From Sweltsa coloradensis (lineage: Eukaryota; Arthropoda; Insecta; Plecoptera; Chloroperlidae), in contig JAMZAV010002220.1 of NCBI GenBank assembly GCA_024449915.1, forward strand, positions 310,001-374,000: a stretch of 64,000 bases of DNA. Direction: 5' to 3'. The notes under the pieces are model-generated. The model searched no databases and was not told the DNA's origin. It saw only the letters and a program-made list of their open reading frames with translations. This document shows positions 5,201-61,061 of the stretch, in pieces; within the stretch, counting starts at the first letter, position 1; each line of letters starts with the position of its first letter. Position numbers and translations under genes: made by a program.

Positions 5201-8200
5201 AATAATAACACAAAAATAATAACTTTGTCTAATAATGTTATTTTGATTCATCTTCACCAACAAAGTTCAAACCTCTAATGATGAACATTTTGTATTGTGA
5301 TTCCTAATTCATGAATAGATTGCAGGTAAAAAGCCTTCCTTCCAAACAGTATTGCTACAAAGGTTGTTGTTGTTGTTGTTTCAGGAGCGAGTGTTTCTGT
5401 GGCAACGACGCCCCCCCGTCGTCTGCACGCCTCCCGGACTCGTCCTGTAACATGAAGTGTCCGGTGGACGTGAAACAGGCCTGCGGGGGCTACCTGGCGC
5501 TCAGTGCTTTCCACACGGGAGTCGCCAGTGAGTTAAACACCACTTCTGCTTGGGTGTAGAAGTTGGGAGTTTTTCCAAGTAGGGAAATTGATTGTCATCA
5601 TTATCCATCGCCGTTTTCCGCTTTTGACTTTTATAAACTTTTATAAATTTGCCAGTGTTTGGAACAGTAACTTTTTTAGAATGGCATACTTTTTTAATTT
5701 TTCTTCTAATTTCCCCATAATTTTCCCCACTTAATTGGCCTACAGTACCTACTAACAACTTACAGTTTGGGAAATTGAAATTAATCATGGTTATTGTCAT
5801 TGGGGTGCCAATAGTATATACAGTTGAATCACTTTACATTTACAGCAAACTTGTAAAAATAAAATAGTTTAACATTTAGGCCTAATGCCAATCAAAGTGT
5901 TTTGTTTCACAGCATTGCAGTTACCATGATGTGTCTTATCGCTGTGTTTTAGAATGGTCCCCCGCAGTGGCCCGCGAAGTTTCTCCCACGGGGAACCTCA
6001 CGGAAACACCTGTTCGTATTGTGTATTTGCTCACGCTCAACGGGCGCGCGGTGCGTCAAGTACGCAGGCTCATCAAGATGCTCTTCCATTCCCAACACTA
6101 CTTCTATATCCACATTGACACGGTAAGGAACTTGGTCTTCTGCCTTAATTGCTCACTTCTAGCAAATACTGTGCAACAGGAATAGCTTCGCTAGTATTAA
6201 TACGGTCTTACTTCCCGAATTTTACACAGGCAGTGGTGGTGAAAGAAAAACTAAAGTTTAGGCATGGAACTGATTAGTCATTGCATTGCATGCCATTGCA
6301 TTAGTTAGTGGCACGGCGGTGAGTTGGCCTGGAACTTCATTGAATTCTTCGTCATTTGTTTTTGCTCGTATTTCCCTTCGGTAGACCATATTAGTAATAG
6401 CGAACCCTGACTTAAACTGGGAACATGAATAAACATGTTTCAGTGGGGGGAAAGGTACAGAAGGACGACATCTTACCTAAAAAAAAGTTGGGTCGTACAG
6501 ACACAAATAGATGAACAAAAAGACAAGTTGCTGACATGTTTCGATCAACTAGTGGTCTTTGTCACTAGGCATGAGTAGATTAATAGCGAAGCGGTTCTTA
6601 TTACAGTATTTTTTTTTACCATTGAGTTTCTAGTGTATCCAGACTCTACACTAGTGGGCATTAAGTACTGCTGTCAATGGTTTTTCAGTAATACTGCAGA
6701 ATTGCTCAGCAGTCTGGAATCACTTTAGAAGGTAATTTAATTCATTAATGGTGTTGCGGACTTTCATAGTGTTAGTGAATGTCACACGGTCCCACCCAAC
6801 ATTTTTTTAGTATTTGTTACTTTTTAAAGCGTTAAAGGTTGTTGTTGTTTTAGTTTGATCCAAGATTAGGTCCGTGTATTGCGTAAAGCGAGGGGTGTAT
6901 GCGCGAAGCGCCTTTCTCCACAAGGTGATTCTGCAGTTTTACCATTTCTTTCAATGCCACATCTTTCACCAACACAAGGGTGGATTTTAAACTGAAACTG
7001 TGGTTTATGTATGGTGTAGTCGTTCTATATTCATCAACGAAGCCCCCATCACTTGCTCGTGTTCTTGTACAGAGGCAAGACTACTTGTTCCGCGAGCTCC
7101 TCGACCTAGAACAGCTGTTCCCCAACGTTCGCCTCACCCGCCAGAGATCGGCAACCATCTGGGGTGGCGCGTCGCTGTTGAGCGTGCTGCTGCGCTCTAT
7201 GAGGGAGATCCTGCAACTACCCTGGGCCTGGGACTTCATCATCAATCTTTCAGAGTCGGACTTACCCGTCAAGTAAGTCTCTTTGTCAATCAAGTTCATT
7301 TAAATCTTCAATTCATATTCAATGCTATTCATTTCATACCAGTAACACGCAAGTTTTAACCCTAGCTCAAATTATATTATACAATATGTTAAAAATCATA
7401 TATTTGCTTCTTAAAATATCAATAACAGGTAGGGGTCTACCCTATTTATTAATACTCTAGAGGTAGGCAAGTAGATTTGTACATATCCTTGCAGGACCTT
7501 GCTTGACTCATTCTAAATCTTAATAATATTTAAACTGAATTATAGTGTTGGTTGGGGAAAGATTGATAGAGGCTGGGAGCCAATAGCTTACCTTGAAAAA
7601 GTTCGGCGGCTGTGTAGAGTTGAAGATCACATAAATATATACACAAATTACAAATTACATTACGACGAAACGTTTCGGCTTGAACAGCCTTGTTCACCCG
7701 TCGGAGTTGAGAGAGTTACTAACTAAATAAATGGCTACTATTTACAAATATGTACAAGAGGCGCTGTTGGCGGTGGAGAGGGGAACTAGGGAAGGTCAGC
7801 CAGGTAAGGTAGTTCTCTGTTTCCCCTCTAGACTCCAAGGTTAGCGTAGGTTTAGGTTGGGAGGCTCACGGGAGCTGGTGACCATTTGGTGTGCCAGTTC
7901 CCATTTTCTGACCTCTCCTTCACTGCAGTTAGGTGGTAATGCTTTAATGATGCTGGCATTGAAGCAGTCATTAAAGCTAAGGTTATGAGTGGCTGCATGT
8001 AGTGCCACTGGTTTGTCATTGGCTCTCACTGTGTCGTGCCTGTGCCCATTCATTCTTTGCCTCAGGGTGTTGGTGGTTAGGCCTATATACTCCGCAGGGC
8101 AGTGCTGACATCTAAGTTGGTATATGAGGTTTTTGGTGGTGCAGGTGTTGTGGTGCTTTATCGGATATGTCATCTCCGTGGCTCTGGCCGTGAAGGTTTT

Positions 8201-11200
8201 AGCTGGGAGGTTTATCGGGCAGGTGTGGCAGCGATTGCTCTGGCAGGGGTAGGACCCTCTGGGTAGTGTGTCCTCTTTTTGTCTCCTCTGTAGGTCGTGT
8301 TTCACTAACATGCTGCTCAGGTTTGGTGGACGTCTGAAGAACACTCTTAGGATGTTGTTGGCCAGGTGTTGTGTGGTGGCAGAGGATGCAAGGAGGTGGC
8401 TACCTCTCTTGAGGATCCCGTTGAGGATGTGTAGGCCAGGGTGCCACTGTGTCACCAAGGGTATTGTGTCTCCTTGGGTACTTGTAGGTTTGTCCGTGGT
8501 GGGGCACACACTTGTTGTTCGACTTGTTCTTGTGGATAGCCTCGAGCAACAAAAGCATTCACAATGCGTTGGCAATGTTGTAAATAGTAGCCATTTATTT
8601 AGTTAGTAACTCTCTCAACTCCGACGGGTGAACAAGGCTGTTCAAGCCGAAACGTTTCGTCGTAATGTAATTTGTAATTTGTGTATATATTTATGTGATC
8701 TTCAACTCTACACAGCCGCCGAACTTTTTCAAGGTAAGCTGTTGGCTCCCAGCCTCTATCAATCTTTCCCCAACCAACACTAAACTAGCCTCTAGGCCCT
8801 ATCAACCCAAGTAAATTGAATTATAGTAACTTTATTTGTTTCCCAAACTACAACATAACAGAACTTACATTGTAGACAAAATAATGGCATAGGATAGGCC
8901 TACATTAATTTTTGCATAGCCGCATAAAGGGCCTACGCCTACCTACCAAGTTAAAAACTTAAAATGTAAATATCAAAACGTTAAATCTAAATTGTGTAGG
9001 CTACTATGAACTTGACTTGTGTGTATTCCATCTAGCCATTTCCAATTTCAAATTTTTAATTAATTTTTTTTTTTTTTTATTTTTTTTGAGAAACTAGGGC
9101 GCTTCAACCGGTTAGGTCATATTGCGCCGCTGTGAATGAAAGGAAATGAGAAGAGTGAATGCAGGTATGTTTGATGATTAGAATGTTTTCTAAGTGTATA
9201 ATAACAAAATAAATTGATGATGATAGTAACAGCAAAATAAAAGTTATGTATGTAAATGAAATAAAGAAAAGAACAATGTGTAGTGTGAATTAAATTTTTT
9301 AAATAGCTAGTACAATGGCGTTTGCAATGTTGTAAATAGTAGCCATTGATTTAGTAGTAATCTCGCAAGCATCTAGTGTGACAGGCTGTTACAAGTCGAA
9401 CGTTCGTCGTACATGTAATTGTAATTGTGTAATATTTTTGTTGAATTCTTCAAATCTACACTGGCCGCAGAACTTTTCCAAGGAAGCTGTTGGCTCCCAG
9501 TCTCTATCAATCTTTCACAACCAACACTAAACTAGCCTCTAGGCCTATCACCCAAGTAAATTTGAACATAGTACTTTACTTGTTCCTCAAACTACAACAT
9601 AACAGACTTACATTGTAGACCAAAATAATGGCTGGATAGGCCTACTTAAATCTTGCATAGCGATAGGGACTACGCCTCCTACCAAGCTACAAACTTAAAT
9701 TCAAATATCAAAACGTTAAATCTAATTGTGTAGGCTACATGAACTTGACTTTGTGTGATTCCATCTAGCCATTTCAATTTCAAATCGGTTCCATATGAAT
9801 AAATAGTGAAGTCCCAACAAAAGCCTGTTCTCACTTCCTCCTAAGAATCCTTGTAACATGAGTGTTGACTTTGCCTTCAGGACCAACAGCCAGCTCGTTC
9901 AGTTCCTATCCAACAACCGAGAGCGCAACTTCGTCAAGTCCCACGGCCGCGAGGTGCAGCGCTTCATCGCTAAACAGGGCCTGGACAAGACGTTTGTCGA
10001 GTGCGACGCTCACATGTGGCGAGTGGGAGACCGATCGCTGCCATGGGGCGTGGTGGTCGACGGGGGGTCGGACTGGGTTGCACTGGGTCGGCCGCTGGTG
10101 CAGCTGGTTACAAGCTCGGTGCCGCTCGTCACCAGTCTGCTGGTCGTGTTCAAGCACACTCTCTTGCCCGCAGAGGTGAGTGTGGGGATTTATCAGTTTG
10201 GTGCGATGGACTAGAAGGGATAGAATCAGGAACATGGACATTCAAGAAATGCTGGGTAGGTAGAGATGTTAAGGACATGGTTTAGATGGTTTGACATATG
10301 AAACTATTAGGGTGTGCGAATCCAATTTTTTCATTTCGAATCCGAATCTCGAATCCCAAACACAAAGATTCGCGAATCCGAATCCGAATCCAAAATTGGT
10401 TTACCTCACACGGAACAAGTAACATAAAAAAATGCCATAATTTCATGGTCCCGTGCTGTTTTTCATTGTTTTTTCCACGTTTTCGAGACTCCGTGACATC
10501 TTCAGCCAATCAACAACACTTCATCCATCCAGCCTTCTCTGAACGCGATGTATTTATCTCGCGCGGTAGGCCTATCTTATCTTTTGGCATTGTTCTACTT
10601 TTCAAGATAACATTGCGAGGAAACTTCTTGCTGTCATTTAAGAGCACATTAGTAGGGCTAAACATAACATGTGTTGTATGGACCCGCACTTATTATTACT
10701 TACGAGTTCGGAGATGGACATCGTTCACGTAATGCAAACGCATCGCTATGTGAAGGGAGACTGACTGACATAAACACGGCGCCCGCCTGTCATCTGAGCT
10801 GGCAGCCGGCCGGCTAGGGCTCGCCTGAGAGAGAGAGAGCGCGCTGCGCCGTAGGGCCTTGCGCAACGCCTGCAGGCAGCCTGCCAGCATCGTCCAAGAG
10901 AGAAGAGAGGACTGGAGCACGGTTGTTTTTCGAATGCTACGTGCGAGAAAAACAGCGCTTTTTCTTGAACAACAAGATGCGAACGGAAATTCTTCGTTTA
11001 CGTACGCGGCGGCCATGTTATCACGTGATCGATTGCAAACTATAAAATCGACCTATCGATTTATTAGCGTGTTTCTCGGGAGTTTGGCGCCGGATTCGAA
11101 TGTTTCGAATACTTCGAATTTTTACGATTTCGGATTCGAACGACGAATCGAATTCGAATCCTGAAAGATTCGATTCGGATTCCATAATTTTGAAGCTTCG

Positions 11201-14200: not shown

Positions 14201-17200
14201 TTCTGCAGTTCAACGGAATGCTCCACCCACTTCTCCGCTGCGATCCCCTCCCCGCCAGCGCCTAGCCTCTAATCTAAATGCTAAAACTATTCTATTTTAT
14301 TCCAGGGCACTGAAAGTCGACAGTTGTTCTTTGCACGCAAGTTTGAACCAATCATCAACCAGGCAGTTATCAACCGGTTAGACCAATGGCTCTACGGTCC
14401 ATATCCTCCAAGTAAGTGGATGTTTAATTTAGATTGGAGAAGGGTTGACAGGTTGGGAAAGCATAGAGAACATAAAGCCCAGCCTGAAGGGCTGGGGGCG
14501 ACAAAACTTTTCACCTGCTGATGACAACTGTAGCTAATTTAAAGTTGTTACCTTAATCCACGACGCGTTTCGTCCTTCTGGGACTCTTCAGGCGGATGGT
14601 GGCCACTAAAAATCAGCTAGCTACATGCAACCAAAACTCACAACACATAACCAAACCTGTGGTAGGGCCACGCAAGAAGTAAATTCTGCAAGCATGTTGT
14701 CATCATCAGCAAGTTTACTTCACACACCATTCATACTGGGGCACACAGTCAGCACAGACAGTAAGGGGGCTTCCCTCCAACTCTGGTGCTCGGGAGACAA
14801 GAAATCCATGACTTACCCTGGATTCGAACCAGGACCCTTGGCAACAAGAGAAAAGCTGCCCCTCCTGCTGTTGCTGGGCAAGGGTGCCTCTTCATTCATA
14901 CAAAGAGAAAAGGTTAGAGATAGGAAGGGTGGAAAGTCACAACACAGCACAACCAGTGAGGGGGCTTCCCTCCTAGACTCTGGTGCTTGGGCGACAAAAG
15001 AACCGACCCTGGATTTGAACCAAGACCCGTGGCAACGAGAGAGGCTGCCCTACTAATTGTGACTGGGATTCGAAAACAAAAGGAAACAAGACTACAAATT
15101 GCAAGCTCTTGGCTATAGCACAGGTACACGTGCTATATTAGCTCTTGGCTGCAGATGAAGAGGTTGAAGGAAAAGATGAGTAGGATCTAACAGGTTCATC
15201 ACCTGCTAGGCCCCCCCAGCAGGACAAGGAGTCACACTTGTTATGAACAAGGAAACACGGACCCACCAGAGGGTGTAGAGTAGGCTCGCCCATCTTGACC
15301 CCATAGGTGAAGAAAGATGGAAAGTGATAGGTGTCAAATGACTTGGTTGTTCAATTAGTTTGGAAAAGGCCAAATGGCTAGTTTAGTTTAGATTGGAGAA
15401 GGGTTGACAGGTTGGGAAAGCATAGAGAACATAAAGCCCAGCCTGAAGGGCTGGGGGCGACAAAACTTTTCACTACTGATGACAACTGTAGCTAATTTAA
15501 AGTTGTTACCTTAATCCACGACGCGTTTCGTCCTTCTGGGACTCTTCAGGCGGATGGTGGCCACTAAAAATCAGCTAACTACATGCAACCAAAACTCACA
15601 ACACATAACCAAACCTGTGGTAGGGCCACGCAAGAAGTAAATTCTGCAAGCATGTTGTCATCATCAGCAAGTTTACTTCACACACCATTCATACTGGGGC
15701 ACACAGTCAGCACAGACAGTAAGGGGGCTTCCCTCCCAACTCTGGTGCTCGGGAGACAAGATATCCATGACTTACCCTGGATTCGAACCAGGACCCTTGG
15801 CAACAAGAGAAAAGCTGCCCCTCCTGCTGTTGCTGGGCAAGGGTGTTTAATTTAATGGAGATTTGTGCTCTAGCATCTTAAGTTTCTTTTACGTGATGCA
15901 AAGCTGCAGACCAATCCATGCAATAGCCTAAACAAATATTATGCAATAGTAGATTGTTGACAGTATTATTTAGATTTTTCTTTATTTTGGCCTGTTTGAA
16001 ATGAATGAGTTTTCTTGTTTGGAATGATTTGATGACTTGATGATTCATGATTATCAATCATCATGTTAATATGCATAAAGAGTGTTTAGACTAAGGATAC
16101 CCATCGACATCGATGTCAAAGCAAATTTTCGACATTGATTTTTTATTTATATCATCAAATTGTTTATTTATATATAGATTAGGGGTGTGCGAGTAATCGA
16201 AATGTCGAGTTTTTTCGAGTTTGTTTTAATACTCGACATTGAGTCGCTCGAAGTTTTCGAGTCGAGTTTTAAACACATGAAATCCTATGAAAACTGAAAA
16301 GAACCATCATCACAGTAGGGCTAGGCCTACATACAGAGGTCTGGGCCTAGGCTTATAACAACCTAGGCCTGTATTGTGACGGCAAAAATTAGGCCTTGGC
16401 CCTAGAGACTGCGTGCTTTCAAAATTATTATGATAAACAACAAAGGAGACTTGTATGCAGGAACTGGGAATAGGCCTTAGGCCTAGGCCTAGGCGTACAC
16501 GGCGTCGAAAACAAACATCCTTTATTGGTTTTGTTGCGTCTTTATCACTAATATTTCCAATCAAATTCCGAGAAAGAATGCCGGTGAATATTCCATTGAT
16601 GCACTTTTTGTCATGTTTTATGTTTCTTCCTTCAATCTTCCATCTTTGCTTTGACGCTAAGCTTGAAGGTCAAACTCGCCGAGCGACGCTATTGGACTGG
16701 AACGAAAAGAACCAGAACAAACTCGTGGCGTGCTCCGTCGGCCATCGCTAGAACTAGAGTCAATGAAGAAGATTAGGGAAACTTCTTTATTGACTCTACG
16801 GAATATTCAAATGTGCTGAAATAGCATTGGAGGTGCCTAGACCGCGAATGTTATAATGCTAGTGCAAATTTGGAGGATTTTTTATTCGGATTAAAACATC
16901 GCAGCAGTATTGTAATGGGGCCAGGAACTGTAATAACATTTAATGTGTTCAAGTCCTTTAACGTCTGTACTAGGCCGTAAATTTAATGTGTTCCAAGCAC
17001 ACCAATGTGTTTACTAAGATCAAATGCGTTCCAGCACACCAATTAATTAGGTACTGACAGTTAACTGCGTTCTAGCACACCAATTAGGTACTGACAGTTA
17101 ACTGCGAGCAATCAACTGTTTCCCACACAAAGGCATCTGTAATAACAATCAGCTGTTTCCCACACAAAGGCATCTGTAATAACAATCAGCTGTTTCCCAC

Positions 17201-20200
17201 GCAAAGGCATCTATAATAACATTTGTGTTCAAGTACTCCAGCGTCTGTACTAGGCCGTAAATTTAATGTGTTCCAAGCACACCAATGTGTTAACTAAGAT
17301 CAAATGCGTTCTAGCACACCGATTAGGTACTGACAGTTAACTGCGTTTTGCACACCGATTACCGATTAGGTACTGACAGTTAACTGCGAGCAATTAACTG
17401 TTTCCCACGCAAAGGCATCTGTAATAACAATCAGCTGTTTCCCACACAAAGGCATCTGTAATAACAATCAGCTGTTTCCCACGCAAAGGCATCTGTAATA
17501 ACATTTAATGTGTTCAAGTTCTCCCGCGTCTGTAGTAGGCCGTAAATTTAGTGTGTTCCAAGCACACCAATGTGTTTACTAAGATCAAATGCGTTCTAGC
17601 ACACCGATTAGGTACTGACAGTTAACTGCGTTCTAGCACACCGATTAGGTACTGACAGTTAACTGCGAGCAATCAACTGTTTCCCACGCAAAGGCATCTG
17701 TAATAACAATCAGCTGTTTCCCACACAAAGGCATCTGTAATAACATAAGATCAAATGCGTTCTAGCACACCGATTAGGTACTGACAGTTAACTGCGTTCT
17801 AGCACACCGATTAGGTACTGACAGTTAACTGTGTTCTAGCACACCGATTAGGTACTGACAGTTAACTGCGAGCAGTCAACTGTTTCCCACGCAAAGGCAT
17901 CTGTAATAACAATCAGCTGTTTCCCACACAAAGGCATCTGTAATAACAATCAGCTGTTTCCTACATAAAGGCATCTGTAATAAAATTTAATGTTAGTTAA
18001 TTTTCGAAACTGAAGTTTAATTTAAATATGTTGAGCTGTTACCATGGAGTTATAAATAGTACTGGCGTACTGGAGGCGCAGGTGTGTGGTCGGCGGTGTA
18101 CAAGTTAGCATTTCAAATTGGCAGACATTTTGATTGTTTACTTTGGTAACCAAGGTAACCTAGGGCCTACCACCGTTCATGGTAGCAAAGTTTAACCTGC
18201 TAGTAGTGATTTTAACAATCAAAATGGCGAATAGGCTCAAATAAACAAACACGATCGTGGACGTGTTGTTCCATTTGAGCTAGACCTCCTTATCATCCAA
18301 CTCCATGCTGTTACTATTACCTGTGTTGAGTTCACACTAAATGCCTAATCTACAGGTTGTTGTATTTATAGATACTAACAACAGAAGGTATTTACAATAA
18401 CAACCAATGGATTGTTGCTACAATCTAAATGCCACCGCCTTGGAAAGTTACTCGTTACATTATTGCCTGCTATTGACAAGAAACAGCCGTCCCGTAGGAG
18501 AGACACGCAGTCTACAACCACAAGGCTCCAAGGCAATTCATTACAATCTAAGTGATAGGGGCAAAGGTGAAACTAATTTACCACCAGGGCGCAGAACGAT
18601 CGAGGTTTGGTCACAGTTGTCTGGACGTGATAAAATTCGAACTTTGACAACATCCATAAGGCGCTGAATATTGTTGTATTTGAGATTATATGTTGATAAA
18701 ATTAGAACTTTAATAAATCCATATGGCGGTGAGTTTTGTTGTATTTGATGTAATCCGTTGATAAAATTCGAACTTTAATAAATCCATATGGCGGTGAGTT
18801 TTGTTGTATTTGATGTAATCCGTTGATAAAATTTGAACTTTAATAAATCCATATGGCGGTGAGTTTTGTTGTATTTAATGGTTGCGTTCCGTTTCCTGCT
18901 GGCTCTACTAGGAGCACAGTAAACAACAGTGCACTTGCAGTGCAAGCCTGCGCTGTCTAGTAGAATAGAGTACGAAATGGTTCCAACTTGCTGCATCCAG
19001 CACAGGCAATGCAGATGTCAGAGAAATAGTAGTGCAGTGAATTTAAAACATGATATTAATTATTTAGGGTAAACTTGAAGAGAAATGAGAAGATTTCACA
19101 ATTTTCTCGATTGTGGGTTAAAAAAATAAATAATTCTCTTGGCGGAATACTTACAGACGTCATCTAGCCTAGACCTAGGCCTAAAGTCATTGACGACGAC
19201 GACGACGTGAGAAACTAGGGCGCTTCAACCGGTTAGGTCATATTGCGCCGCCTGTGAATGAAAGTAAATTAGAAGAGTTAATGCAGGTATGTTTGATGAT
19301 TAGATTGTTTTCTAAGTGTATAAATAACAAAATAAATTGAAGATGAAGAAAGTAATAGCAAAATAAAAGTTTTGTATGTAAATGAAAATAAAGAAAAGAA
19401 AGAAATGTGTATGAAGTTACTTAAAGTTTGTTAAATAGATTACTTTGGATGAGAAATTTGGAAAGTTTGTCGCCGTTATCATATGATAGAAGTTCTTCAT
19501 ATGATTGGGAGAGATCAAATTGCATGCGCAAGGCATCATATTTGGTACATTCTGCTAGCATATGATGTACGGTTAAAGGTACATCACATGTCATCGAACC
19601 ATTAATTTTAAGCTATGATTGAACAATGATATGATTGAAGGTATGAACAACATCCTTACAGCGGCTTAGCCATCCCCAAAACGAAATTGTTGAAACCATC
19701 GCCCAAAAGAGAAACATGCCGATTATACGATGTCACAGATTTCTACATTAGATATGGAACCGCTAGATATATTTTTATTCTGCTCTAAATTGCAAAGATT
19801 TCTACACAAATGACCTGAATGTCCACATTTCTTGGGGCCAAGCCCCCGGACCCCCTCTTTCTGGTACATTTTGGTCCACTGCTTTTCGTCTCTTATTCAG
19901 AAATAAACTCATTTAAAAGAGAGGACCTCTTTCCCCCGCCCCCTCCCCTTCGTCAGATAGACGGCGATGTCGGTAAATTTTAGTGGTGTCATTAAAATTG
20001 TACTCATATCATCAAAATTCTGTTCAAGTAGAGAAGGAATTTTCAATAAATAAATAACGATTAAATATATCCTAACAAACAATTTTGGTCCCCGAATAAA
20101 TGAGTCTTCAAAACCGACAGTGCGTTTCTCTGATTCGGGTGGTGCAGTTGCATAATGTGTTTCTGTCAAAGCAACAATAGATTGAAATTTGGAGCCATGA

Positions 20201-23200
20201 TACTGATATGCTAAGACTGGAGTACCGTACCATACTATATTGATTGCATAATAAATATAATATAGGTCTATTATTTAATGACAATATCATGTATAAAGTA
20301 GGCTTAGGCTAGTGTAATTATTTTTGAGACAGTTGTTCTCTAACGGTCGAGTTACCAAGGCCACGTGGGCCAAAACGTATCAACAATTGTGTTTGTATAT
20401 ATTCATGTCTACTCGTCACGCAGCCACCTACAATTTTCAGGTAAGCTGTTGGAATCCTTTCTCCTTTCCCCAATCACTCACTAACATAGCCGATAGGCCA
20501 CTCTATAATATATTCATCAAATCATAATTCGTTGTTTGTTGTATCATAAAATGATGTATTTTACCAATTCTCCCTCATATTGAACATCTCTGTGTGAATG
20601 TGTTGAAGTGAATTGTTCTGTGCGCCTGCTAGGTATGGCTAGCTTGAACATCTGTGTGTGACTGTGAGTGTGTTAAAGTGAATTGTTCTGTGCGCCTGCT
20701 AGGTATGGCCAGCTTGAGCATCTGTGTGTGACTGCGAGTGTGTTAAAGTGAATTGTTCTGTGCGCCTGCTAGGTATGGCCAGCTTGAACATCTGTGTGTG
20801 ACTGTGAGTTAGGGCTCCCATTCGTACCGTTTTAGCCGGGACAGTCCCTTTTTTTCAGGTGGTGTCCCAGTGTCCCGGCTACTTGTAGCCGGGACGCCTA
20901 ATTGTCCCTTTTTTAGAATGGGTAACGACCGCGCTATTTTTACGGTCTAGGCCTAGCATTTGAATCGCCGCGCCTACAATGCAACTCTTAACCCCGACCA
21001 TGGCCAGTTACCAACCACTCACCAAAAACGAACTATAAAGATTCAAGAAGTCAAGGTCTAGATCCAGGCTGCCAACAGTAAGAAGAAAGTGGCATTTTAC
21101 CGATAAACTATAGACAGATTTTCCTGTTTTTGCTAAAAAGTAACAAGAATATTGAAATTTGAAGGGATTGTTGAGTGTACAATCATGTGTTAATTTTCGT
21201 TTCAACGTTAACATTTTCGGGAACAGGCGCGTAGGAAGGGGGGGGGGGAGGGGGGAATTCCACCCACTTTTTGCCGTCCCCCCCCCCCCCCACTTCAGAA
21301 GAGCAATGACCAACAATTTCCCATTATTGTTGGACGTGATCGGGAACGTAATGATGAATTTCAATGGTTGTAACATGATCTATCTCGTCACTACCACAAT
21401 TTTTTTTTTTATAGTTTTATAATATTTTGTACTCTTATACAAAAATGCATTAATTTGATATCGCATTCAGACCACTTATTTTTTTCTAAAACGCACCAAA
21501 CACACTCTAAAAACTATATTTTCAAAATTTTCGCCTACGGCGCTGTAGTTGGGGGGAGCCCCCCCAAACCCCCTGTGCTGGTCCCCTAAAGTAGTTGTCC
21601 CGTTTTTGGGTTTTTGTATTATGGGAGCCCTACTGTGAGTGTGTTAAAGTGAATTGTTCTGTGCGCCTGCTAGGTATGGCCAGCTTGAGCATCTGTGTGT
21701 GACTGCGAGTGTGTTAAAGTGAATTGTTCTGTGCCTGCTAGGTATGGCCAGCTTGAACAGCTACTGGCAGTCCTCGTTCCACTACGCCGACCTGTCTCCC
21801 CCGCCAGACGACGCGCTGGTTTCTCTGGCGGGGAGCGTGGCGCGCCGCGTGGCCAAGAGCACTGGGGTGGAAGTCAAGCTCGGCTGTGTTCATGAGGTGA
21901 CGGCGTACTTCTATGAGGACCAGTACCAGGTCAGTAAATTCAATTCAATTTTATTTGCTTCCTTCTGACTAGTACATTGTGGTATTTAAACACAACTACC
22001 AAAATATGGGATTTGTCAAACAAAAAATATAGATTACAATTTAACAAGAATATATACAGTCAACAACCTTCTGATTGGCGATGGGACAGTATACACGTTT
22101 TTTATGGGTGTAAACGTTTCTATAAAAACAATAAACGCACGTAGTATTATGTTGCGTATGACCGACCACCGGCTGTCCAAAAGTTTGCGGTTATGGTCTA
22201 TCTATCTACCCCTTGATTTTACTGTGATTGCTGTTGCACACTTTAGGCAATCTTCCTGGATTACAACTACTAAACAGAACATACAAATATTGTTTAAGCT
22301 AACTAAGAACATATGATGTGTAGCTGTAGAGTGTACACGTTTAGGGAAGTGCACGTATTTGACCATTCCTAAATCTGATACATATAAGGCTTCATTATAT
22401 TGAGTTGTATATTGTTGTACGGTATTAAATGAGTTGTGTTTTCTCCACGCTAGGGGTCGCTGGTAAGGTTTGAAGCACAGCACGCTGAAAAGGGTACGAC
22501 ACATTTTGTGGAGTCTTGGATTCAATACCAGCCTGATAGCACACACGTAGATGATTCTAACTCTAGAATCAAGGTAAGCTCTTATCTCATCCATAACAAA
22601 TAACGGTTTAGTACAAGTTTGTCCTTTGAAATGATATGATAATGGATAACTCAATGTATAGAAGCTTAATATAGTTAGTAGTTACCATAAATAAATGATT
22701 CTAACAATGATTCTGGGTTCAATCCCTAGTCAGTGCAATATTATATCACAACACACAATGTTTGATATTTCACAAAACGTTTTAAATTACAAAATGCTTG
22801 GGCTTTTGTTAGTTTACAGAAATGTGGTAAGTAAAGGCAATTTCATGTTAAATCTGATTGGATGAGCGTAGCGAGCGAAGCGAAGACTTCAAAATCACTG
22901 ACCCCCAAAAAATTTAGCTCGGGTGTTTTTTTTTTGTTTTTTTTGTTTGTTTTTTGTTTTTTTTGTCTGTTTGTTAACTCTCTACCAGGCAAACGGCATA
23001 TCCGATCTTGATGAAAATTTGACAGGACCTTCGAAATCTCTGAACTTAGAGGTGTATTGTTTTTGGGTACAATCGAAGAAATATTTCTCATGAATATCGT
23101 ACTTTTACGATTTTTTTTCGATTTTTAGTGCGATATTTTCGTGCCATTTGGGCCAATTCTGACCAAACGGGTGGAGCTACAACTTTCATATTATACATGG

Positions 23201-26200
23201 ACATTAAGGTTATGGTGATGGAGTACCTTTTGAAAGAAAAGTTGAAAAAAATAGCCAGAATCTATAGAAATAAAGCTTTTAATATAAGATTTTTTGTTTT
23301 TGTACGATATTTTCGTGCCATTTGGGCCATTTCTGACCAAACGGGTGGGGCTTCAACGTTCATATTATACATGGACATTAAGGTTATGGTGATGTAGTAC
23401 CTTTTGAAAGAAAAAGTTAAAAAATTAGCCAGAATCCATAGAATAAGCTTTTTATGTAAATTTTTACGGTAAATATACTAATTGACAAGAAACAAAAGAA
23501 ATTGACATCATTCACCTACAATGCGTAGGCAGCAAAACAAAGCACTTGCAAAAGTAAAGATATCCCACGCAAACTAAAACTTTAAAAAGCTCATCCATCA
23601 ACGCGGCGGGACTTTAGCGTTTTCCTAGTATAGAATTATGAATGAGCATCAAAGCTCAAAAGCCAGATAATATCTTATTTAAATGTAATTAGTTATTTAC
23701 ACATATAGTTTTTGTGTTCTAGTTCCTAGTTAAACAAGTTTGAAGAAAATAATAAAACCATGCATAAAACATCTTGTTTATAACTTTATTTACAATGATT
23801 CGTATTTAAAACATGTTTTGACATTTTTTAGGTCTTACAATAAAATATTGTCCTATTAATCAAATGCTTCAGTGTTTAAAGGTTAAACGTTGACACAATG
23901 AAAGGTTTTGTATCCACCCCTTGACTGACCTTCACAGTACTGTACAACATGTATTTCAATGCTAGAGACTATCGATGCATGTTTTTCCTGTTCCAGTTCC
24001 TCTCAGTGAGCTCTGACTTTGACGTAAAGGAGCAGCTCAGCCTGAACTGGCTCTCGGTGCTCGGCCCACTGTCCGAGCCGGTTCTCATGTGGGGCAGTCG
24101 GCCCACTCAGTCGGCCCCACTCAACGCGTCGGCTCTCTGGATCGATCCCACCGGGAATCTAGCGGACGTTACCGCGCTTCACCTGGATTCTGATCCACTC
24201 GTGAGTAGGGTCACCCTCGGCCTCTACCCTCTCGGCGCATGGTTAACATGTTAAAAACTATCAACTATAGTTAATTCGTTGCACATCTCCAACAGCTACG
24301 ACCGAACGAGTAAAGTTTTTCCATGCACTTGTATTTGTTACAGGCTGGTACTAAAGTGTTGCTCTTTGTTTTAGGACAGAAGCATTGCGGTTGAAGTCCT
24401 CTAGCTTGCAATTGGATTATCCATCCATTTTTCATAATTAAATCACCATGTAGGCCTATCAGTAGACGACGAGACGTGCAACAAAAGTACTATAGACGTT
24501 TCTTGTTTTCATTCATCATTCATAACTAAGCTAAAAAATTATAATAAAAGAAATTTAATAAGTATTTTACTGATTGTAATTGTAATTTAATTACTATTGA
24601 AAGTAATTGGCCCACACCTCAAGTCTAGAGCCTTACCTAGCCACCAATATTTGTCAAGAGATTTGTTTGTATTGCCTTTAAGTTCAAGTTTGATTAATTA
24701 ATTCATTATCAACAAACAATTAATATTTATATAATATAATTAATACATTCACAATCGCTTCAAACTTGGTACAAATACTTAGTTGCAATTAAGTAACTTA
24801 AACATGCCTTTTCCCATGTAAAAGTAAGTTTAAATCTCCGCTGTTCCCACCACATCCCCTGACTGTAGTGAGCCTGTATTGCAGGTGGGGCACACGCGTC
24901 CCTTGCTGCCGGAACCACTGCTGCCCGGGATATGGGAAGTGAAGCTCATTGCGGGCACGCAAGCCGTCGCGAGCACTCGGTTCCTCATCACTCCCCTCTC
25001 CGCCATGGCGGGGGTGCCACTCTCGGCTAAACAGGCTGGGTAGGTGTTCGTTTGGGTCGTTGTTAGTCTGGGACTTGTAGCTAGGTCATGTTCTGAGTGA
25101 TGGTCATTCAGAATAAGTTGCTGACCAACTGCTATTGTTCCTACTCTGTTCTCTATCTTGATTGAGTGCTGATACAGTAAGTATGCCTATCATGAATTCA
25201 GCAATTATGTCTGCCAGTTGGCAACCAATAATTAAATTAATTTATTGATTCATAGCAGTTGTCGTAAAAGTTTGCCCCGACTGGGGTTCGAACCCAAAAC
25301 AACCCCAGTCGGGGCAAACTTTTACGACAACTGCTATGAAAATTATGAATCAATAACTATGTCCTTAAAGCGGGCTTATGCTTAAAAACCTTATAGTATT
25401 AATAATTAATTTGTTTTGCAAAATATTTTTTCAACCCCTTTAGGCCCTATATCAATTTGCTCTTCACTCGGATCTTCAAGAAAGAAGACATAACCTTATT
25501 GGTATTGGGACACAACACACAACACACATACAATGTTTGGACAGGTATATTATGCCGTAATTGAATTTTTTTATTGAGAGAAGAATTTTTACACTTCCAT
25601 CTCTCATACAGCTAAATAATATATTACGGTATCTTAAAATTAAAAGCAGTTGTCATTAGCTTGGAAGTTGCGTGTACTGTAGACGTAGAGTGTAGACAAT
25701 CTGTGATTCCCCAACCTGTAACCTACCCACTGCTAGCTACTCTTCTACTTTAGGTGAGCTATTTAACCGAAATAACCGAAATTGTATTGAATTAAAAACC
25801 ATCAAATCTGCTGTGCTCGTATTATTCTGACGATGACGATGTCTCCGACTAGGGTGATACACAAGACATCTGCGTCACCGTACACGAGTCAGGTTGACTG
25901 GGATGTTTTCCTGCCCAGTCAGTCGGAGAAGAACGCCCTCCAGCGACGTGCGGCACTGAACGCCCGGCGATACGGCGAGGACCTCGGCGAGTGGATTGAC
26001 TCCCTCACGTCGAGGTACGTTCCGTCACCTCACTAGCTAGCCGTCGTATCTGTAGGGACAGGAAAAATATCAATTTCCTGGTACTGCTTCTTATACTCTT
26101 ATCTACCTTTTTACTCCATTATAGGTCGCCATCAAGTAGTGGCTGCAACCCTATTTTATCCACTCATATATTATAAAGAGTACCAGTAGGATATAAATTA

Positions 26201-35491: not shown

Positions 35492-35625
35492 ATTAAGTCA
35501 ATCCAGAAATTAAAAATTCCATCCCAGCGGGATATCGAACCCCGGTCTCCCGATTGCCGGTCAAGTGCTTTACCCCTAAGCCACCGGGACCGCTGGGATA
35601 GAATTAATTTTTGGATTGATTTCCA
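35492..35625 (-). repeat. tRNA-like foldback element
   Basis: The minus strand folds into a complete cloverleaf of about 70 nt: acceptor GTCCCGG/CTGGGAT with G-U pairs, D stem GCTT/AAGC, anticodon stem CTTGA/TCGGG with loop CCGGCAA (GGC in anticodon position), and T arm CGGGG-TTCGATA-TCCCG. Inverted repeats outside the cloverleaf (CAATCCAGAAATT / AATTTTTGGATTG, and ATCCCAGCGG / CCGCTGGGAT) enclose it. A diverged copy lies at 42775-42917. Base 33 is C rather than U, so a working tRNA is unlikely. Confidence 0.7.
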
Positions 35626-37699: not shown

Positions 37700-37805
37700 T
37701 ATAATTTACTGTAGAGAGAACATAAAGCCCAGCCTGAAGGGCTGGGGGCGACAAAACTTTTCACCTGCTGATGACAACTGTAGCTAATTTAAAGTTGTTA
37801 CCTTA

Positions 37806-37847
37806 ATCCACGACGCGTTTCGTCCTTCTGGGACTCTTCAGGCGGAT
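37806..37847 (-). ncRNA. Hammerhead ribozyme in inverted part
   Basis: Same 42-nt motif as at 38883, on the minus strand, in the inverted 5' portion. Confidence 0.85.
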
Positions 37848-38882
37848 GGTGGCCACTAAAAATCAGCTAACTACATGCAACCAAAACTCACAACACATAA
37901 CCAAACCTGTGGTAGGGCCACGCAAGAAGTAAATTCTGCAAGCATGTTGTCATCATCAGCAAGGTTACTTCACACACCATTCATACTGGGGCACACAGTC
38001 AGCACAGACAGTAAGGGGGTTCCCTCCCAACTCTGGTGCTCGGGAGACAAGAAATCCATGACTTACCCTGGATTCGAACCAGGACCCTTGGCAACAAGAG
38101 AAAAGCTGCCCCTCCTGCTGTTGCTGGGCAAGGGTGCCTCTTCATTCATACAAAGAGAAAAGGTTAGAGATAGGAAGGGTGGAAAGTCACAACACAGCAC
38201 AACCAGTGAGGGGGCTTCCCTCCTAGACTCTGGTGCTTGGGCGACAAAAGAACCATGTCTTACCCTGGATTTGAACCAAGACCCGTGGCAACGAGAGAGG
38301 CTGCCCTACTAATTGTGACTGGGATTCGAAAACGAAAGGAAACAAGACTACAAATTGCAAGCTCTTGGCTATAGCACAGGTACACGTGCTATATTAGCTC
38401 TTGGCTGCAGATGAAGAGGTTGAAGGAAAAGACGAGTCGCCCAAGCACCAGAGTCTAGGAGGGAAGCCCCCTCACTGGTTGTGCTGTGTTGTGACTTTCA
38501 GTCTAGGAGGGAAGCCCCCTCACTGGTTGTGCTGTGTTGTGACTTTCCACCCTTCCTATCTCTAACCTTTTCTCTTTGTATGAATGAAGAGGCACCCTTG
38601 CCCAGCAACAGCAGGAGGGGCAGCTTTTCTCTTGTTGCCAAGGGTCCTGGTTCGAATCCAGGGTAAGTCATGGATTTCTTGTCTCCCGAGCACCAGAGTT
38701 GGGAGGGAAGCCCCCTTACTGTCTGTGCTGACTGTGTGCCCCAGTATGAATGGTGTGTGAAGTAACCTTGCTGATGATGACAACATGCTTGCAGAATTTA
38801 CTTCTTGCGTGGCCCTACCACAGGTTTGGTTATGTGTTGTGAGTTTTGGTTGCATGTAGTTAGCTGATTTTTAGTGGCCACC

Positions 38883-38924
38883 ATCCGCCTGAAGAGTCCC
38901 AGAAGGACGAAACGCGTCGTGGAT
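38883..38924 (+). ncRNA. Hammerhead ribozyme, type I
   Basis: ATCCGC (stem I), CTGAAGA, GTCC-CAGAA-GGAC (stem II), GAAA, CGCGTC with cleavage expected after C38918, then GTGGAT (stem I partner). A15.1 to U16.1 enclose CGCG, so stem III is the self-complementary ACGCGU. That favours a dimeric or co-transcriptional fold, as in other short-stem-III hammerheads. Confidence 0.88.
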
Positions 38925-39847
38925 TAAGGTAACAACTTTAAATTAGCTACAGTTGTCATCAGCAGGTGAAAAGTTTTGTCGCCCCCAGCCCTTCAGGCTG
39001 GGCTTTATGTTCTCTATGCTTTCCCAACCTGTCAACCCTTCTCCAATCTAAACTAAACTAGCCATTTGGCCTTTTCCAAACTAATTGAACAACCAAGTCA
39101 TTTGACACCTATCACTTTCCATCTTTCTTCACCTATGGGGTCGAGATGGGCGAGCCTACTCTACACCCTCTGGTGGGTCCGTGTTTCCTTGTTCATAACA
39201 AGTGTGACTCCTTGTCCTGCTGGGGGGGCCTAGCAGGTGATGAACCTGTTAGACCCTACTCGTCTTTTCCTTCAACCTCTTCATCTGCAGCCAAGAGCTA
39301 ATATAGCACGTGTACCTGTGCTATAGCCAAGAGCTTGCAATTTGTAGTCTTGTTTCCTTTCGTTTTCGAATCCCAGTCACAATTAGTAGGGCAGCCTCTC
39401 TCGTTGCCACGGGTCTTGGTTCAAATCCAGGGTAAGACATGGTTCTTTTGTCGCCCAAGCACCAGAGTCTAGGAGGGAAGCCCCCTCACTGGTTGTGCTG
39501 TGTTGTGACTTTCCACCCTTCCTATCTCTAACCTTTTCTCTTTGTATGAATGAAGAGGCACCCTTGCCCAGCAACAGCAGGAGGGGCAGCTTTTCTCTTG
39601 TTGCCAAGGGTCCTGGTTCGAATCCAGGGTAAGTCATGGATTTCTTGTCTCCGAGCACCAGAGTTGGGAGGGAAGCCCCCTTACTGTCTGTGCTGACTGT
39701 GTGCCCCAGTATGAATGGTGTGTGAAGTAACCTTGCTGATGATGACAACATGCTTGCAGAATTTACTTCTTGCGTGGCCCTACCACAGGTTTGGTTATGT
39801 GTTGTGAGTTTTGGTTGCATGTAGTTAGCTGATTTTTAGTGGCCACC

Positions 39848-39889
39848 ATCCGCCTGAAGAGTCCCAGAAGGACGAAACGCGTCGTGGAT
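39848..39889 (+). ncRNA. Hammerhead ribozyme, type I
   Basis: Second sense copy, 965 bp after the first, core identical. Confidence 0.88.
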
Positions 39890-40813
39890 TAAGGTAACAA
39901 CTTTAAATTAGCTACAGTTGTCATCAGCAGGTGAAAAGTTTTGTCGCCCCCAGCCCTTCAGGCTGGGCTTTATGTTCTCTATGCTTTCCCAACCTGTCAA
40001 CCCTTCTCCAATCTAAACTAAACTAGCCATTTGGCCTTTTCCAAACTAATTGAACAACCAAGTCATTTGACACCTATCACTTTCCATCTTTCTTCACCTA
40101 TGGGGTCGAGATGGGCGAGCCTACTCTACACCCTCTGGTGGGTCCGTGTTTCCTTGTTCATAACAAGTGTGACTCCTTGTCCTGCTGGGGGGGCCTAGCA
40201 GGTGATGAACCTGTTAGACCCTACTCGTCTTTTCCTTCAACCTCTTCATCTGCAGCCAAGAGCTAATATAGCACGTGTACCTGTGCTATAGCCAAGAGCT
40301 TGCAATTTGTAGTCTTGTTTCCTTTCGTTTTCGAATCCCAGTCACAATTAGTAGGGCAGCCTCTCTCGTTGCCACGGGTCTTGGTTCAAATCCAGGGTAA
40401 GACATGGTTCTTTTGTCGCCCAAGCACCAGAGTCTAGGAGGGAAGCCCCCTCACTGGTTGTGCTGTGTTGTGACTTTCCACCCTTCCTATCTCTAACCTT
40501 TTCTCTTTGTATGAATGAAGAGGCACCCTTGCCCAGCAACAGCAGGAGGGGCAGCTTTTCTCTTGTTGCCAAGGGTCCTGGTTCGAATCCAGGGTAAGTC
40601 ATGGATTTCTTGTCTCCCGAGCACCAGAGTTGGGAGGGAAGCCCCCTTACTGTCTGTGCTGACTGTGTGCCCCAGTATGAATGGTGTGTGAAGTAACCTT
40701 GCTGATGATGACAACATGCTTGCAGAATTTACTTCTTGCGTGGCCCTACCACAGGTTTGGTTATGTGTTGTGAGTTTTGGTTGCATGTAGTTAGCTGATT
40801 TTTAGTGGCCACC

Positions 40814-40855
40814 ATCCGCCTGAAGAGTCCCAGAAGGACGAAACGCGTCGTGGAT
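40814..40855 (+). ncRNA. Hammerhead ribozyme, type I
   Basis: Third sense copy, 966 bp after the second, core identical. Confidence 0.88.
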
Positions 40856-40998
40856 TAAGGTAACAACTTTAAATTAGCTACAGTTGTCATCAGCAGGTGA
40901 AAAGTTTTGTCGCCCCCAGCCCTTCAGGCTGGGCTTTATGTTCTCTATGCTTTCCCAACCTGTCAACCCTTCTCCAATCTAAACTATAATTTACTGTA

Positions 40999-41342
40999 GG
41001 TGTATATGAACAAGTATGTGTGGTGTAGTATGTATAATGTATGTATGTATGTATGTATGTGTGTGCGCGTGTGCGCTGTGCATACACACGCACTCTGTCG
41101 GTGGAGCCTTGAAACAATCCTATGAGTACTGCACCTTTATAAACAATCACTTGTATAAATTTCCATTTAGAAAATTATTTTGAATATTATATCTGGTGCT
41201 TTTCTAATCATCTTGTATCTTTACGTTGATGCTATATCTTTCAAAAAAGTAACTTTAACAACACTGCCCATAAATTTGGTTGGTTGGTAGCTGTCAGATA
41301 AGTAGAGATCTTGGATATCTTGAGGAATGTGGTATGTTCGGC
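40999..41342. other. OGFOD3 3' flank
   Basis: About 340 bp with a (TATG)n microsatellite at 41037-41060. No clear minus-strand AATAAA was spotted. Confidence 0.6.
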
Positions 41343-44400: not shown

Positions 44401-47400
44401 TTACAACATCAATATTTTATGGAAACAGTAAGCCTGTACATAAGGAAGCAGGCTTTTACATCTCAAAACGGTTCACTTAGGTGCTGTATATCAACTGATA
44501 ACAATTGCAATTTGAGGTGTCTATTTAACATCCAAAAACGTTTTGAGTCAAAATGTTTTGGCCTATCACTACATTAAAAACAGTTTTTACTAAATTGATT
44601 TGAAATGTTTTGTATAAGTGGTAAATTTATATTCTATTAATTTTAATTGTATTTAAAGTACTGTGTCTAAATATAAAGTTAGCAGATAGAGATAGAAAGC
44701 TACAATTCACGCTTACTTGTACATGTCAAAGTCAGCCTTCTTGAAGAGATTTTGAGCCATGTCCATCTTGTAGAAATTAACAAAGCTGTCATTCAACGAC
44801 AGCGCTCCGGAATGTAGATCCAAGATGGCCGCTGCGCCGTCAGATCCTAGAGCCAAGCCGCGCTTTGCAAGACCGAGCAATGCGTCTGCCTCTATGGCCG
44901 TAACCAGCGTGTCGGAGACTAAACGTCCACACCTAGATGGCACACATCCTGCAATGATCAATGATCATAGGTAGTGTCAGTTTAGATTGGCAGAATGTAA
45001 CTATCTAAGAATACTAGAAGCACAAAGCATGCATGCCAACATACACACCAATTTGTTTATTTTGTGGTGTGATGAAAGGAATGCCAAAAGGCTGGATCAT
45101 GTGAGAAACATGTAGAGATAGGATAGGAGACCAACAGCTTACCTGAAGTGGAGTAGGCGCGCCGTGATAGAAGACAAACACAAATAAACAAATAACACTA
45201 CATTTCAAACGTTTCGGTCTACGTGACCTTCCTCAGTGAGTAGAGAAGAGTTACTGAGGTGAAAAACTAAAGCTAGGTAGCCGTTGGCTAGGGTGGGGGT
45301 GGGGTGAAGTGAAAGATGAGTGGGGGGTGTGGAATGGGTGACAGGGAGGGGTAGAGAGGAGGAGAGGGAGGACTACCTAAGGTTTAAGTTAGGTTTGTGG
45401 CACGATTTGCAAATCCATTGGTAGGCCAGTTCCCATCTTCTCAGTTCTCCATAGTGTACAGTACACGGTCACCCATTCCACACCCCCCACTCATCTTTCA
45501 CTTCACCCCACCCCCACCCTAGCCAACGGCTACCTAGCTTTAGTTTTTCACCTCAGTAACTCTTCTCTACTCACTGAGGAAGGTCACGTAGACCGAAACG
45601 TTTGAAATGTAGTGTTATTTGTTTATATTTTGTGTTTATGTCTTCTATCACGGCGCGCCTACTCCACTTCAGGTAAGCTGTTGGTCTCCTATCCTATCTC
45701 TACATGTTCCTCACACAATTTGTTTATTTTATTTACTAGGAAAACGCTAAAGTCCCGCCGCGTTGATGGATGAGCTTTTTAAAGGTTTTAGTTTGCGTGG
45801 GATAACTTTACTTTTGCAAGTGCTTTGTTTTGCTGCCTACGCATTGTAGGTGAATGTTGTCAAGTTTCTTTTGTTTCTTGTCAATTGGTATTATTTACCG
45901 TAAAAAACTTATATTAAAAGCTTTATTTCTATGGATTCTGGCTAACTTTTTCAACTTTTTCTTTCAAAAGGTACTACATCACCATAACCTTAATGTCCGT
46001 GTATAATATGAACGTTGTAGCCCCACCCGTTTGGTCAGAATTGGCCCAAATGGCACGAAAAAATCGCACAAAAAATCAAAAAACTTATATTCAAAGCTTT
46101 ATTTCTATAGATTCTGGCTAACTTTTTCAACTTTTTCTTTCAGAAAGCAATACATCACCATTACCTTAATGTCCATGTGAAATATGAACGTTGTAGCCCC
46201 ATCCGTTTGGTCAGAATCGGCCAAAATGTGACGAAAATATCGCACTAAAAATCGAAAAAAATCGTAAAAGTACGATATTCATGAGAAATATTTCTTCGAT
46301 TGTACCCAAAAACGTAGCAAGTCTAAGTTCAGAGATTTCGAAGGTCCTGTCAAATTTTCATCAAGATCGCATATGCCGTTTGCCCGGTAGAGAGCGAACA
46401 AACAGACAAAAATACAAACAAAAAAACAAAAAAACAAAAAAACAAAAAAAAAACACCCGAGCTAAATTTTTTGGGGGTCAGTGAAATTGAAGTCTTCGCT
46501 TCACTCGCTTCGCTCGCTACGCTCATCCAATTATATATTATATATTTTATATAATTTAGGCCTATAGAGATATTTCATAATAAATACAATTTAATATATT
46601 ATTCAAGAGGGGGAAAAAATGGTAGGCTTATCTCTTTAATAAATCAATGAGTAAAAATATCAAAATAAATGTGGTTTGGAAAAGTTGTTGTTTGTCGTTC
46701 ATTTGTTGTAGTTCATACCAAAAACGAAGTGTAGTATCCTTGCCAGTAAGGTTTATTTTAAAATTACATACCTACCTACCTACCTAATTTCTGCTGCCGA
46801 CCTTGAAATATATGTAGGCCTAATGCCAATGTTTGAGAAGAGGAGTTAATGTTTCTTAGAAGACCTGTTTTTACAAAACCTTGACATAAAGAACCAGTGT
46901 TTATTTATTTATGATTAGAGTGTTTCTGTTAAACCGTACATTTTTACCAATTATTCGTCATAATATAATAGTGAACGATATGATGCTGCCATTGTGTATG
47001 AAATAGAGATATATTTCATACACAAAAGTACTGCTAAAAAGGTGTGACGATAGCAGCCTTAGCTGAAACCTCATATAGCACAGGTTGATGGAACAAACTA
47101 AGACAATTTACATAATGTGTTACCGATATTGGTGTACTTGGCACATCTGCGACATCCGTGTAGACCTAGTCTCTCTACATAAACTAATGAATAAATTTGA
47201 ATGGAAAAACTTAATACGGTATGTCTAGACTCTAGAGCCACCTTATACATTTTTGTGAGTCAAGCTGGACCACCCTTCCGCACTCCCATAAACATTTTAT
47301 GTAAGACTGCAATTTGTCTTAGTAGGCCTATTTGCAAACTGATGTCAGATCAAAAGTTTCAACATCACATTGCAATGTTGAACTTAATTCGTCATCAAAA

Positions 47401-60392: not shown

Positions 60393-61061
60393 CTAGGAAA
60401 ACGCTAAAGTCCCGCCGCGTTGATGGATGAGCTTATTATAATTTTAAGTTGCATGGGATATCTTTACTTTGCAAGTTCTTTGTTTTGCTGCCTACGCATT
60501 GTAGGTGATTGTTGACAAGTTTCTTTGTTACCTGTCAATTGGTTTTATTTACCGTAAAAAAACTTATATTAAAAGCTTTATTTCTAGGGAAATTCTGGCT
60601 AACTATTTCAACTTTTTCTGTCAAAAGGTACAAATCACCATAACCTTAATGTCCATGTATAATATAACGTTGTAGCCCCACCCGTTTGGTCAGAATGGCC
60701 CAAATGGCACGAAAATATCGCACAAAAAATAAAAACTTATTTTAAAAAGCTTTATTTCTATGGATTCTGGCTAACTTTTTCAACTTTTTCTTTCAAAAGG
60801 TACTAAAATCACCATAACCTAATGTCCATGTATAATAGGAACGTTGTAGCCTACCCGTTTGGTCAGAATTGGCCCAAATGTCACAAAAAATATCGCACTA
60901 AAATCGAAAAAAACGTAAAAGTACGATATTCATGAGAAATATTTCTTCGATTGTCCCCAAAAACAATACACCTCTAAGTTCAGAGATTTCGAAGGTCCTG
61001 TCAAATTTTCATCAAGATCGGATATGCCGTTTGCCTGGTAGAGAGTTAACAAACAGACAGA

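Follow-up and report, generated by a model that had tools for sequence, protein, structure and literature searches.

Within a 64,000-nucleotide stretch of the plecopteran Sweltsa coloradensis (contig JAMZAV010002220.1, positions 310,001 to 374,000 of the forward strand; hereafter, the window), we found an array of 965-nt repeats at 37715–40984 that we interpret, with good confidence, as a single insertion of a non-coding, non-autonomous Penelope-like element (PLE) that is present in high copy number and bears a dimer-type hammerhead ribozyme in each unit. From its sequence, the 965-nt element can with high confidence be called a PLE passenger, because its two end sites, head-to-head arms, target duplications, and start-site sequence agree with those of a resident PLE that has a GIY-YIG domain. 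The same agreement supports an earlier interpretation of this DNA, made from the letters alone (hereafter, the original prediction), which had proposed a retrozyme-like agent that moves with Penelope-like machinery. Judging from the matching insertion marks, a PLE enzyme probably moves the element, which is best read as a non-autonomous PLE derivative with a retrozyme-like architecture and not as an autonomous PLE: no reading frame with reverse transcriptase (RT) plus GIY-YIG, the criterion for autonomy, was found in the 965-nt unit.

The array is a single insertion between direct repeats (TATAATTTACTGTAG; Table 1), of which no third exact copy was found in the window. These repeats represent a target duplication of 15 bp, or of 14 bp if a shared T is assigned to the element, in line with the claim that the array had been inserted as one piece with a 14-bp duplication. 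Its two arms meet head-to-head. The forward arm has the head-to-tail organization that had been predicted for the entire array, with unit spacings of 965 and 966 nt, whereas the remainder (37715–38437) is inverted, and the outer end of this inverted arm (37715 side) corresponds to an RNA 3′ end at a site named V, 38 nt short of the right-hand end. The unit has a GC content of 0.484, its longest reading frame (150 aa) has no Pfam match, and the sole database relative of this frame is listed in the manner of a protein of the window itself.

Table 1 Features of the 965-nt element, its hammerheads, and resident Penelope-like elements in the window (u, position in the reference unit)
Feature	Position	Strand	Basis
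Left target-site duplication TATAATTTACTGTAG	37700–37714	.	
Right target-site duplication; first T possibly part of the element	40985–40999	.	
Inverted arm, unit 926 to 204, 0.72 kb	37715–38437	-	
Forward arm, 2.64 head-to-tail units of 965–966 nt, terminating at site S	38436–40984	+	
48-bp segment in two tandem copies beside the head-to-head junction	38452–38547	+	
Reference unit, 965 nt, u1–u965	39055–40019	+	
Tail segment, from end site S (u965/u1) to end site T (about u37)	39055–39091	+	
Type I hammerhead in the inverted arm	37806–37847	-	Rfam RF00163, 42.2 bits
Type I hammerhead	38883–38924	+	Rfam RF00163, 42.2 bits
Type I hammerhead, u794–u835, predicted cleavage after u829	39848–39889	+	Rfam RF00163
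Type I hammerhead, predicted cleavage after 40849 (array end 135 nt further on)	40814–40855	+	Rfam RF00163
Anticodon-arm-like hairpin (39391–39407) and T-arm/B-box-like hairpin (39415–39431)	39391–39431	+	By eye
Second T-arm/B-box-like hairpin (GGTTCGAATCC)	39612–39628	+	By eye
Second array of the same family, 1.48 units, two hammerheads, same 3′ end site S	14428–15845	-	
Open frame with GIY-YIG domain of Penelope-like element PLE-II	7841–8602	-	PF01541 exactly at cut-off, 22.6 bits
PLE-II pseudo-long terminal repeat with hammerhead-like motif, ends at S-equivalent	7543–7747	-	
Inverted PLE-II pseudo-long terminal repeat; its downstream flank aligns with the S/T region of the unit	8578–8782	+	
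PLE-III-type solo insertion with one minimal hammerhead in each of its head-to-head arms, flanked by CAATTTGTTTATTTT (45049–45063, 45716–45730)	45064–45715	.	

The window's own genome assembly (GCA_024449915.1; 1.449 Gb) was surveyed with two queries. In this genome-wide copy survey, of the kind suggested with the original prediction, the 965-nt unit had 2014 first-look candidate places, more than expected by chance. Forty of these places were scored, with 117 matches listed, as were 40 of 2905 first-look places for a 5.4-kb array query. We dissected 55 arrays (39 loci from the unit query, 14 from the array query, and two of the window), of which 30 have a single orientation and 25 are head-to-head (17 from the first dissection, with L027, L039 [flanks], L042 [left side], L079, L081, L086, L087, and L089). 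Because arrays were chosen by best score, the sample favors young and long ones, and its figures should not be taken as genome-wide frequencies. L042 had been taken for a single-orientation array, a reading that was dropped when its left side was added and revealed a head-to-head locus whose junction is chimeric. The 5′ end that recurred near unit position 928 was an artifact of the linear query and was gone with a tandem reference.

The ends of the arrays gather at two sites, S (u962 to u6) and T (u35 to u41), about 37 nt apart (35–41). End pairs of the 25 head-to-head insertions comprise 17 S/T, four S/S, two S/V (the window array and L035; V = u922–926), two S/other (L036 and L039), and no T/T, and T is used in 17 of the 50 ends. 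When the same 50 ends were re-paired at random, at least 17 S/T pairs arose in 0.07% of trials and zero T/T pairs in 1.6%. A T end is also present in five of the 30 single-orientation arrays (L010, L017, L033, L043, and L082). A genome in which simple segmental duplication without target duplications explained all copies had been named in advance as evidence against the original prediction, and the arrays do not show such a picture: clean duplications, mostly 14–16 bp long (minimum 12 bp, simple repeats not counted), flank 17 of the 25 head-to-head insertions, compared to one of the 30 single-orientation arrays (Fisher P = 2e-7, hand tally). Three further head-to-head insertions (L011, L023, and L042) have repeats of at least 12 bp only within AT-simple sequence. 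In null chimeric flanks, 12 bp was reached in 3 of 123, and a TA-repeat flank borders 9 of the 30 single-orientation versus 2 of the 25 head-to-head arrays.

The same end pattern characterizes the resident PLE of the window, PLE-II, in which the GIY-YIG frame sits between inverted 205-bp pseudo-long terminal repeats (pseudo-LTRs). Among the best 30 of the 150 scored relatives of PLE-II in the genome, 28 loci provided 31 match ends. Relative to the S-equivalent, 18 of these lie within −3 to +5 and 11 within +28 to +38, and two, both from the window's own copy, are longer. Across S and T, the unit aligns to PLE-II in the same orientation with a score of 40, a value reached neither by 2000 shuffles (best score, 33) nor by any of 1020 other window segments. 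This kinship is confined to the surroundings of S and T, and the rest of the unit is unrecognized. The PLE-III-type insertion has the same anatomy as the array, with a 36-nt tail (its left arm is 36 nt longer) and a 15-bp duplication. Distances from the cleavage site to the end are 97/135 nt in the unit, 126 nt in PLE-II, and 108–113/144 nt in PLE-III. In passages of previous studies, the PLE tail is described as the distance between two RT start sites, with both strands cut and extended (PMC11167929), and as present on one of the inverted pseudo-LTRs (PMC3846280). A 163-nt relative at L062 (89% identical, ending at S) was considered as the PLE's own repeat, and is read instead as an old truncated copy.

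The PLE-II hammerhead has a core of its own, GTGAACA in place of CTGANGA, with two letters exchanged (G3 and C8 for C3 and G8). A free-core pattern matched 23 of the 30 PLE-II loci (L048–L077), 22 of them with the GTGAACA core in frame; L055 has the same letters with one G fewer ahead of the core, and seven loci had no pattern match. At the gathering threshold, Rfam reported neither the PLE-II hammerhead (7543–8782) nor either of the two minimal hammerheads of the PLE-III insertion (45049–45730). Because a C3G/G8C double mutant partly restores the Anolis PLE ribozyme in a published passage (PMC11167929), the PLE-II core may, by analogy, represent a naturally swapped hammerhead lineage.

Several points weigh against a PLE passenger as described here. 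The unit has no RT or endonuclease, and any one PLE of this genome is only a candidate for the acting one. More than half of the arrays (30/55) have a single orientation, mostly without a clean duplication; this class does not fit two-strand priming and would have to be joined in some other way. The data that test S, T, and V also served to define them, in arrays selected by best score, and the PLE-II ends are BLAST match ends unchecked by duplications.

Six hammerheads were identified in the window, each with 42.2 bits (Rfam RF00163; gathering score, 34), four in the array at 37715–40984 and two in the array at 14428–15845. The covariance-model check thus located the ribozyme at the motif where it had been predicted. 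The claim that this motif is a complete type I hammerhead holds for the letters of stem I, core, and stem II, whereas helix III cannot close in one copy. Folded singly, the 42-nt motif adopts a non-hammerhead structure (−10.6 kcal/mol), and two motifs cofolded form a double hammerhead (−27.5 kcal/mol) with helix III made of ACGCGU paired with ACGCGU. According to these folding models, the ACGCGU palindrome is unable to form helix III within one copy and the ribozyme is of the dimer type, which is described for amphibian repeats and proposed for PLEs in passages of PMC7229834 and PMC7761336, respectively. The motif is unaltered in 128 of the 141 copies that cover it in the genome sample, and five of the 13 altered copies differ at u804 alone, the free seventh core position (own count). 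By eye, the helix III palindrome is ACGCGU in the unit, compared to ACGU in PLE-II and PLE-III of the window. Small PLE-associated hammerheads that cleave as dimers are reportedly the subject, by title, of work by Luense et al. in 2017. Exact hammerhead and T-arm patterns had no match in viral contig and genome contig collections.

Each unit also has an internal duplication of about 104 nt (80–86% alike), and by eye each half bears a T-arm/B-box-like hairpin, one of them with a 7-nt-loop hairpin before it. Of the two tRNA-like modules that had been claimed, the hairpins and the duplication stand, and the match to a tRNA model does not: ARAGORN made no call at the unit modules and the Rfam tRNA model was absent from matches up to E 5 or E 10, so full tRNA modules were rejected. 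The hairpins would also fit an ordinary tRNA-derived short interspersed element (SINE) mobilized by a long interspersed element, with an incidental hammerhead, and schistosome hammerhead elements are termed SINE-like in part of PMC8490949. Such a SINE is nevertheless very improbable here, given that no tRNA model matches the unit, that its ends obey the two-site PLE pattern, that no A-tail was seen in the 3′ flanks of 24 loci, and that TTTT runs within the unit would be expected to halt RNA polymerase III (pol III). The combination of a ribozyme with tRNA-like modules, called unusual in the original prediction, is less so than claimed: hammerheads together with pol III boxes are already known from schistosomes, where they align with boxes A and B (passages of PMC2576457).

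In the mechanism that we propose, a PLE protein would make staggered cuts, about 15 nt apart, in the two target strands and prime reverse transcription from each, as a rule with one start at S and the other at T, after which the complementary DNA arms would be joined head-to-head. Dimeric hammerhead cleavage of a multimeric transcript, followed by ligation by a host ligase, would supply an RNA circle of one or two units, and the enzyme, running round this circle, would lay down tandem units. From the DNA, with which it is compatible, a circular RNA template is plausible and we give it an even chance. That each head-to-head insertion stems from one PLE complex starting at S and at T on a single hammerhead-made circle of 1–2 units is a tentative proposal that could well fail. 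If true, hammerhead passengers and PLEs would form one system, and dimer-type ribozymes would cut multimeric transcripts yet spare the finished circle for rolling reverse transcription.

The S and T start sites lie 97–172 nt downstream of the predicted cleavage site, so a self-cut linear unit would yield only a stub ending at the cut. No inner arm end is within 3 nt of the cleavage site among 59 of a first set (L042 left out; two are within 10 nt) or among 19 of a second set, which suggests a template that in nearly every case had stayed uncut or been ligated again. No scars interrupt the alignment of arms as long as 5.6 units. Separately from their distance to the cleavage site, inner (5′) arm ends cluster at u392–419, just 3′ of the first T-arm-like module (10/59 of the first set, P = 0.003); a pause of RT at the GC-rich hairpin is a possible cause, at a guess.

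Variants among copies of the same array number 67 in all copies, 13 in some, and 276 private. Three of the five long arrays alternate two unit types (L028: 702T; L030: 559T versus 900A; L091: 332T, 649T, and 845C versus 230C), the pattern that a circle made of two unlike units would give. Among eight variant patterns, one of which (L028 953C) is an alignment end effect, six have equal parity (P = 0.014) and five have a spacing of exactly two (P = 0.03). Rare variants are common to both arms in L030, L031, L047, and L089 (e.g., L030 773C in 5/5 copies; L089 783C and 733T in 3/3). These shared variants argue against tandem units arising after insertion by unequal crossing-over or replication slippage in DNA, as in a satellite, since they are found in opposite arms of one insertion, and so do multi-unit insertions at many loci, each with its own target duplication. 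We consider such DNA-level expansion unlikely, even though two-unit crossing-over could produce period-2 patterns and the 48-bp repeat at 38452–38547 is a local duplication.

The circle has its own difficulties. The forward arm of L042 begins exactly at the first base past the cleavage site, beside a 23-nt unit piece, a start that could stem from a linear RNA that had cut itself. In L091, copy 0 is without the 230C expected under strict alternation, and a spacing of two is absent from the partial variants of L037 (295T in neighboring copies) and L092 (860G in copies 0 and 4). Copies differ on average by 5.5 per kb within the same arm, by 3.9 when the two arms of an insertion are compared, and by 6.5 between arrays, so homogeneity within arms is modest. 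The Anolis PLE, according to published passages, mainly uses uncut RNA in vitro (PMC11167929). Much of this would fit the same PLE-driven element with another template, a linear multimer transcribed from a genomic array and left uncut, for which the hammerhead would be unneeded for tandem growth: besides the dominance of uncleaved RNA, Anolis hammerhead mutants insert normally (same passages), the variants of L037 and L092 are non-alternating, and divergence within an arm is near that between arrays. A linear template would, however, lose units at the 5′ end in each round, so that multimers would need re-expansion; some arrays (e.g., L013, L014, and L040) show no differences among their 2–3 copies, and the alternation in L028, L030, and L091 would require alternating sources. 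We regard the linear template as a serious possibility at somewhat less than an even chance. On circle versus line, the DNA pattern is suggestive, not decisive.

Other features of the window include a xylosyltransferase gene on the + strand, represented by nine tblastn rows within 2133–26869, the last of which is weak (E 0.05). One window frame matches human xylosyltransferase 1 in PDB, and among the 120 of 803 relatives listed, the best-scoring named ones are from insects, with the top match 74% identical over 60% of the query, in keeping with an arthropod host. The array at 14428–15845 is antisense to this gene and, by eye, ends about 11–15 bp past a GTAAGT (14412–14417), from the sequence a likely 5′ splice site for an exon of that gene (matched from 14300). 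Three two-copy repeats of a kind of about 174 bp (23123–23465, 45902–46260, and 60558–60903) are present, two in one orientation and one in the opposite, and a pattern search of these dimers found no hammerhead. A tRNA-Ala (GGC) call at 35520–35590 (- strand; Rfam, 45.2 bits) is a gene or a SINE head, and a dense block at 16931–17983 consists of nested 37-bp and 282-bp tandem repeats.

Compared to known systems, the element resembles Penelope/Poseidon PLEs as described in passages of PMC11167929 and PMC3846280: copies are tandem or inverted head-to-head at AT-rich targets with short target duplications, the hammerhead lies about 100 nt before the RT start, and two start sites leave a 30–40-bp tail. 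It differs in being a pure 965-nt repeat without an RT/GIY-YIG frame, and its duplications are mostly 14–16 bp, compared to the 8–10 bp quoted there for rotifer PLEs. With animal non-LTR retrozymes, according to passages of PMC7229834, it shares non-coding tandem units with a type I hammerhead, GC below 50%, target duplications, and coexistence with PLEs. The claim that its unit size is unusual stands in part: 965 nt exceeds the about 170–400 nt of animal retrozymes, whereas circular RNAs of 150 to >1000 nt are also mentioned in the same paper (PMC7229834). Unlike these retrozymes, the element has a predicted dimer-type hammerhead, explicit PLE end sites, and a PLE-like start sequence. Amphibian satellite-2-like repeats come close in their ribozyme, with one pair in helix III plus a palindromic loop and cleavage expected in dimers, and differ in sequence and in their 330–350-nt units (passages of PMC7229834). 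Schistosome Sm-alpha likewise joins a hammerhead to pol III-type boxes; in contrast to it, the element has no recognized full tRNA-like head and has the PLE end pattern, and Sm-alpha ends are not described in the passages of PMC8490949 and PMC2576457 consulted.

In the corresponding parts of the literature, PLEs are named merely as candidate movers of animal hammerhead retroelements (PMC7229834), hammerhead repeats are said to show no conserved motif that reveals their partner (PMC7761336), and 'short, nonautonomous Penelope elements' of butterflies are mentioned without structure (PMC6685494). Among titles, abstract starts, and passages, the 2014/2017 PLE-hammerhead papers excluded, we found no paper tying an animal hammerhead repeat to a PLE by its end sites. 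Here, the genome itself gives the link between passenger and probable mover, because the element and the resident PLE have end sites and sequence there in common. The pairing of one S with one T amounts to a specific prediction, open to testing, on how PLEs form their head-to-head copies. Arrays with two alternating unit types would mark circular templates at the DNA level, and such arrays could be tallied in further genomes.

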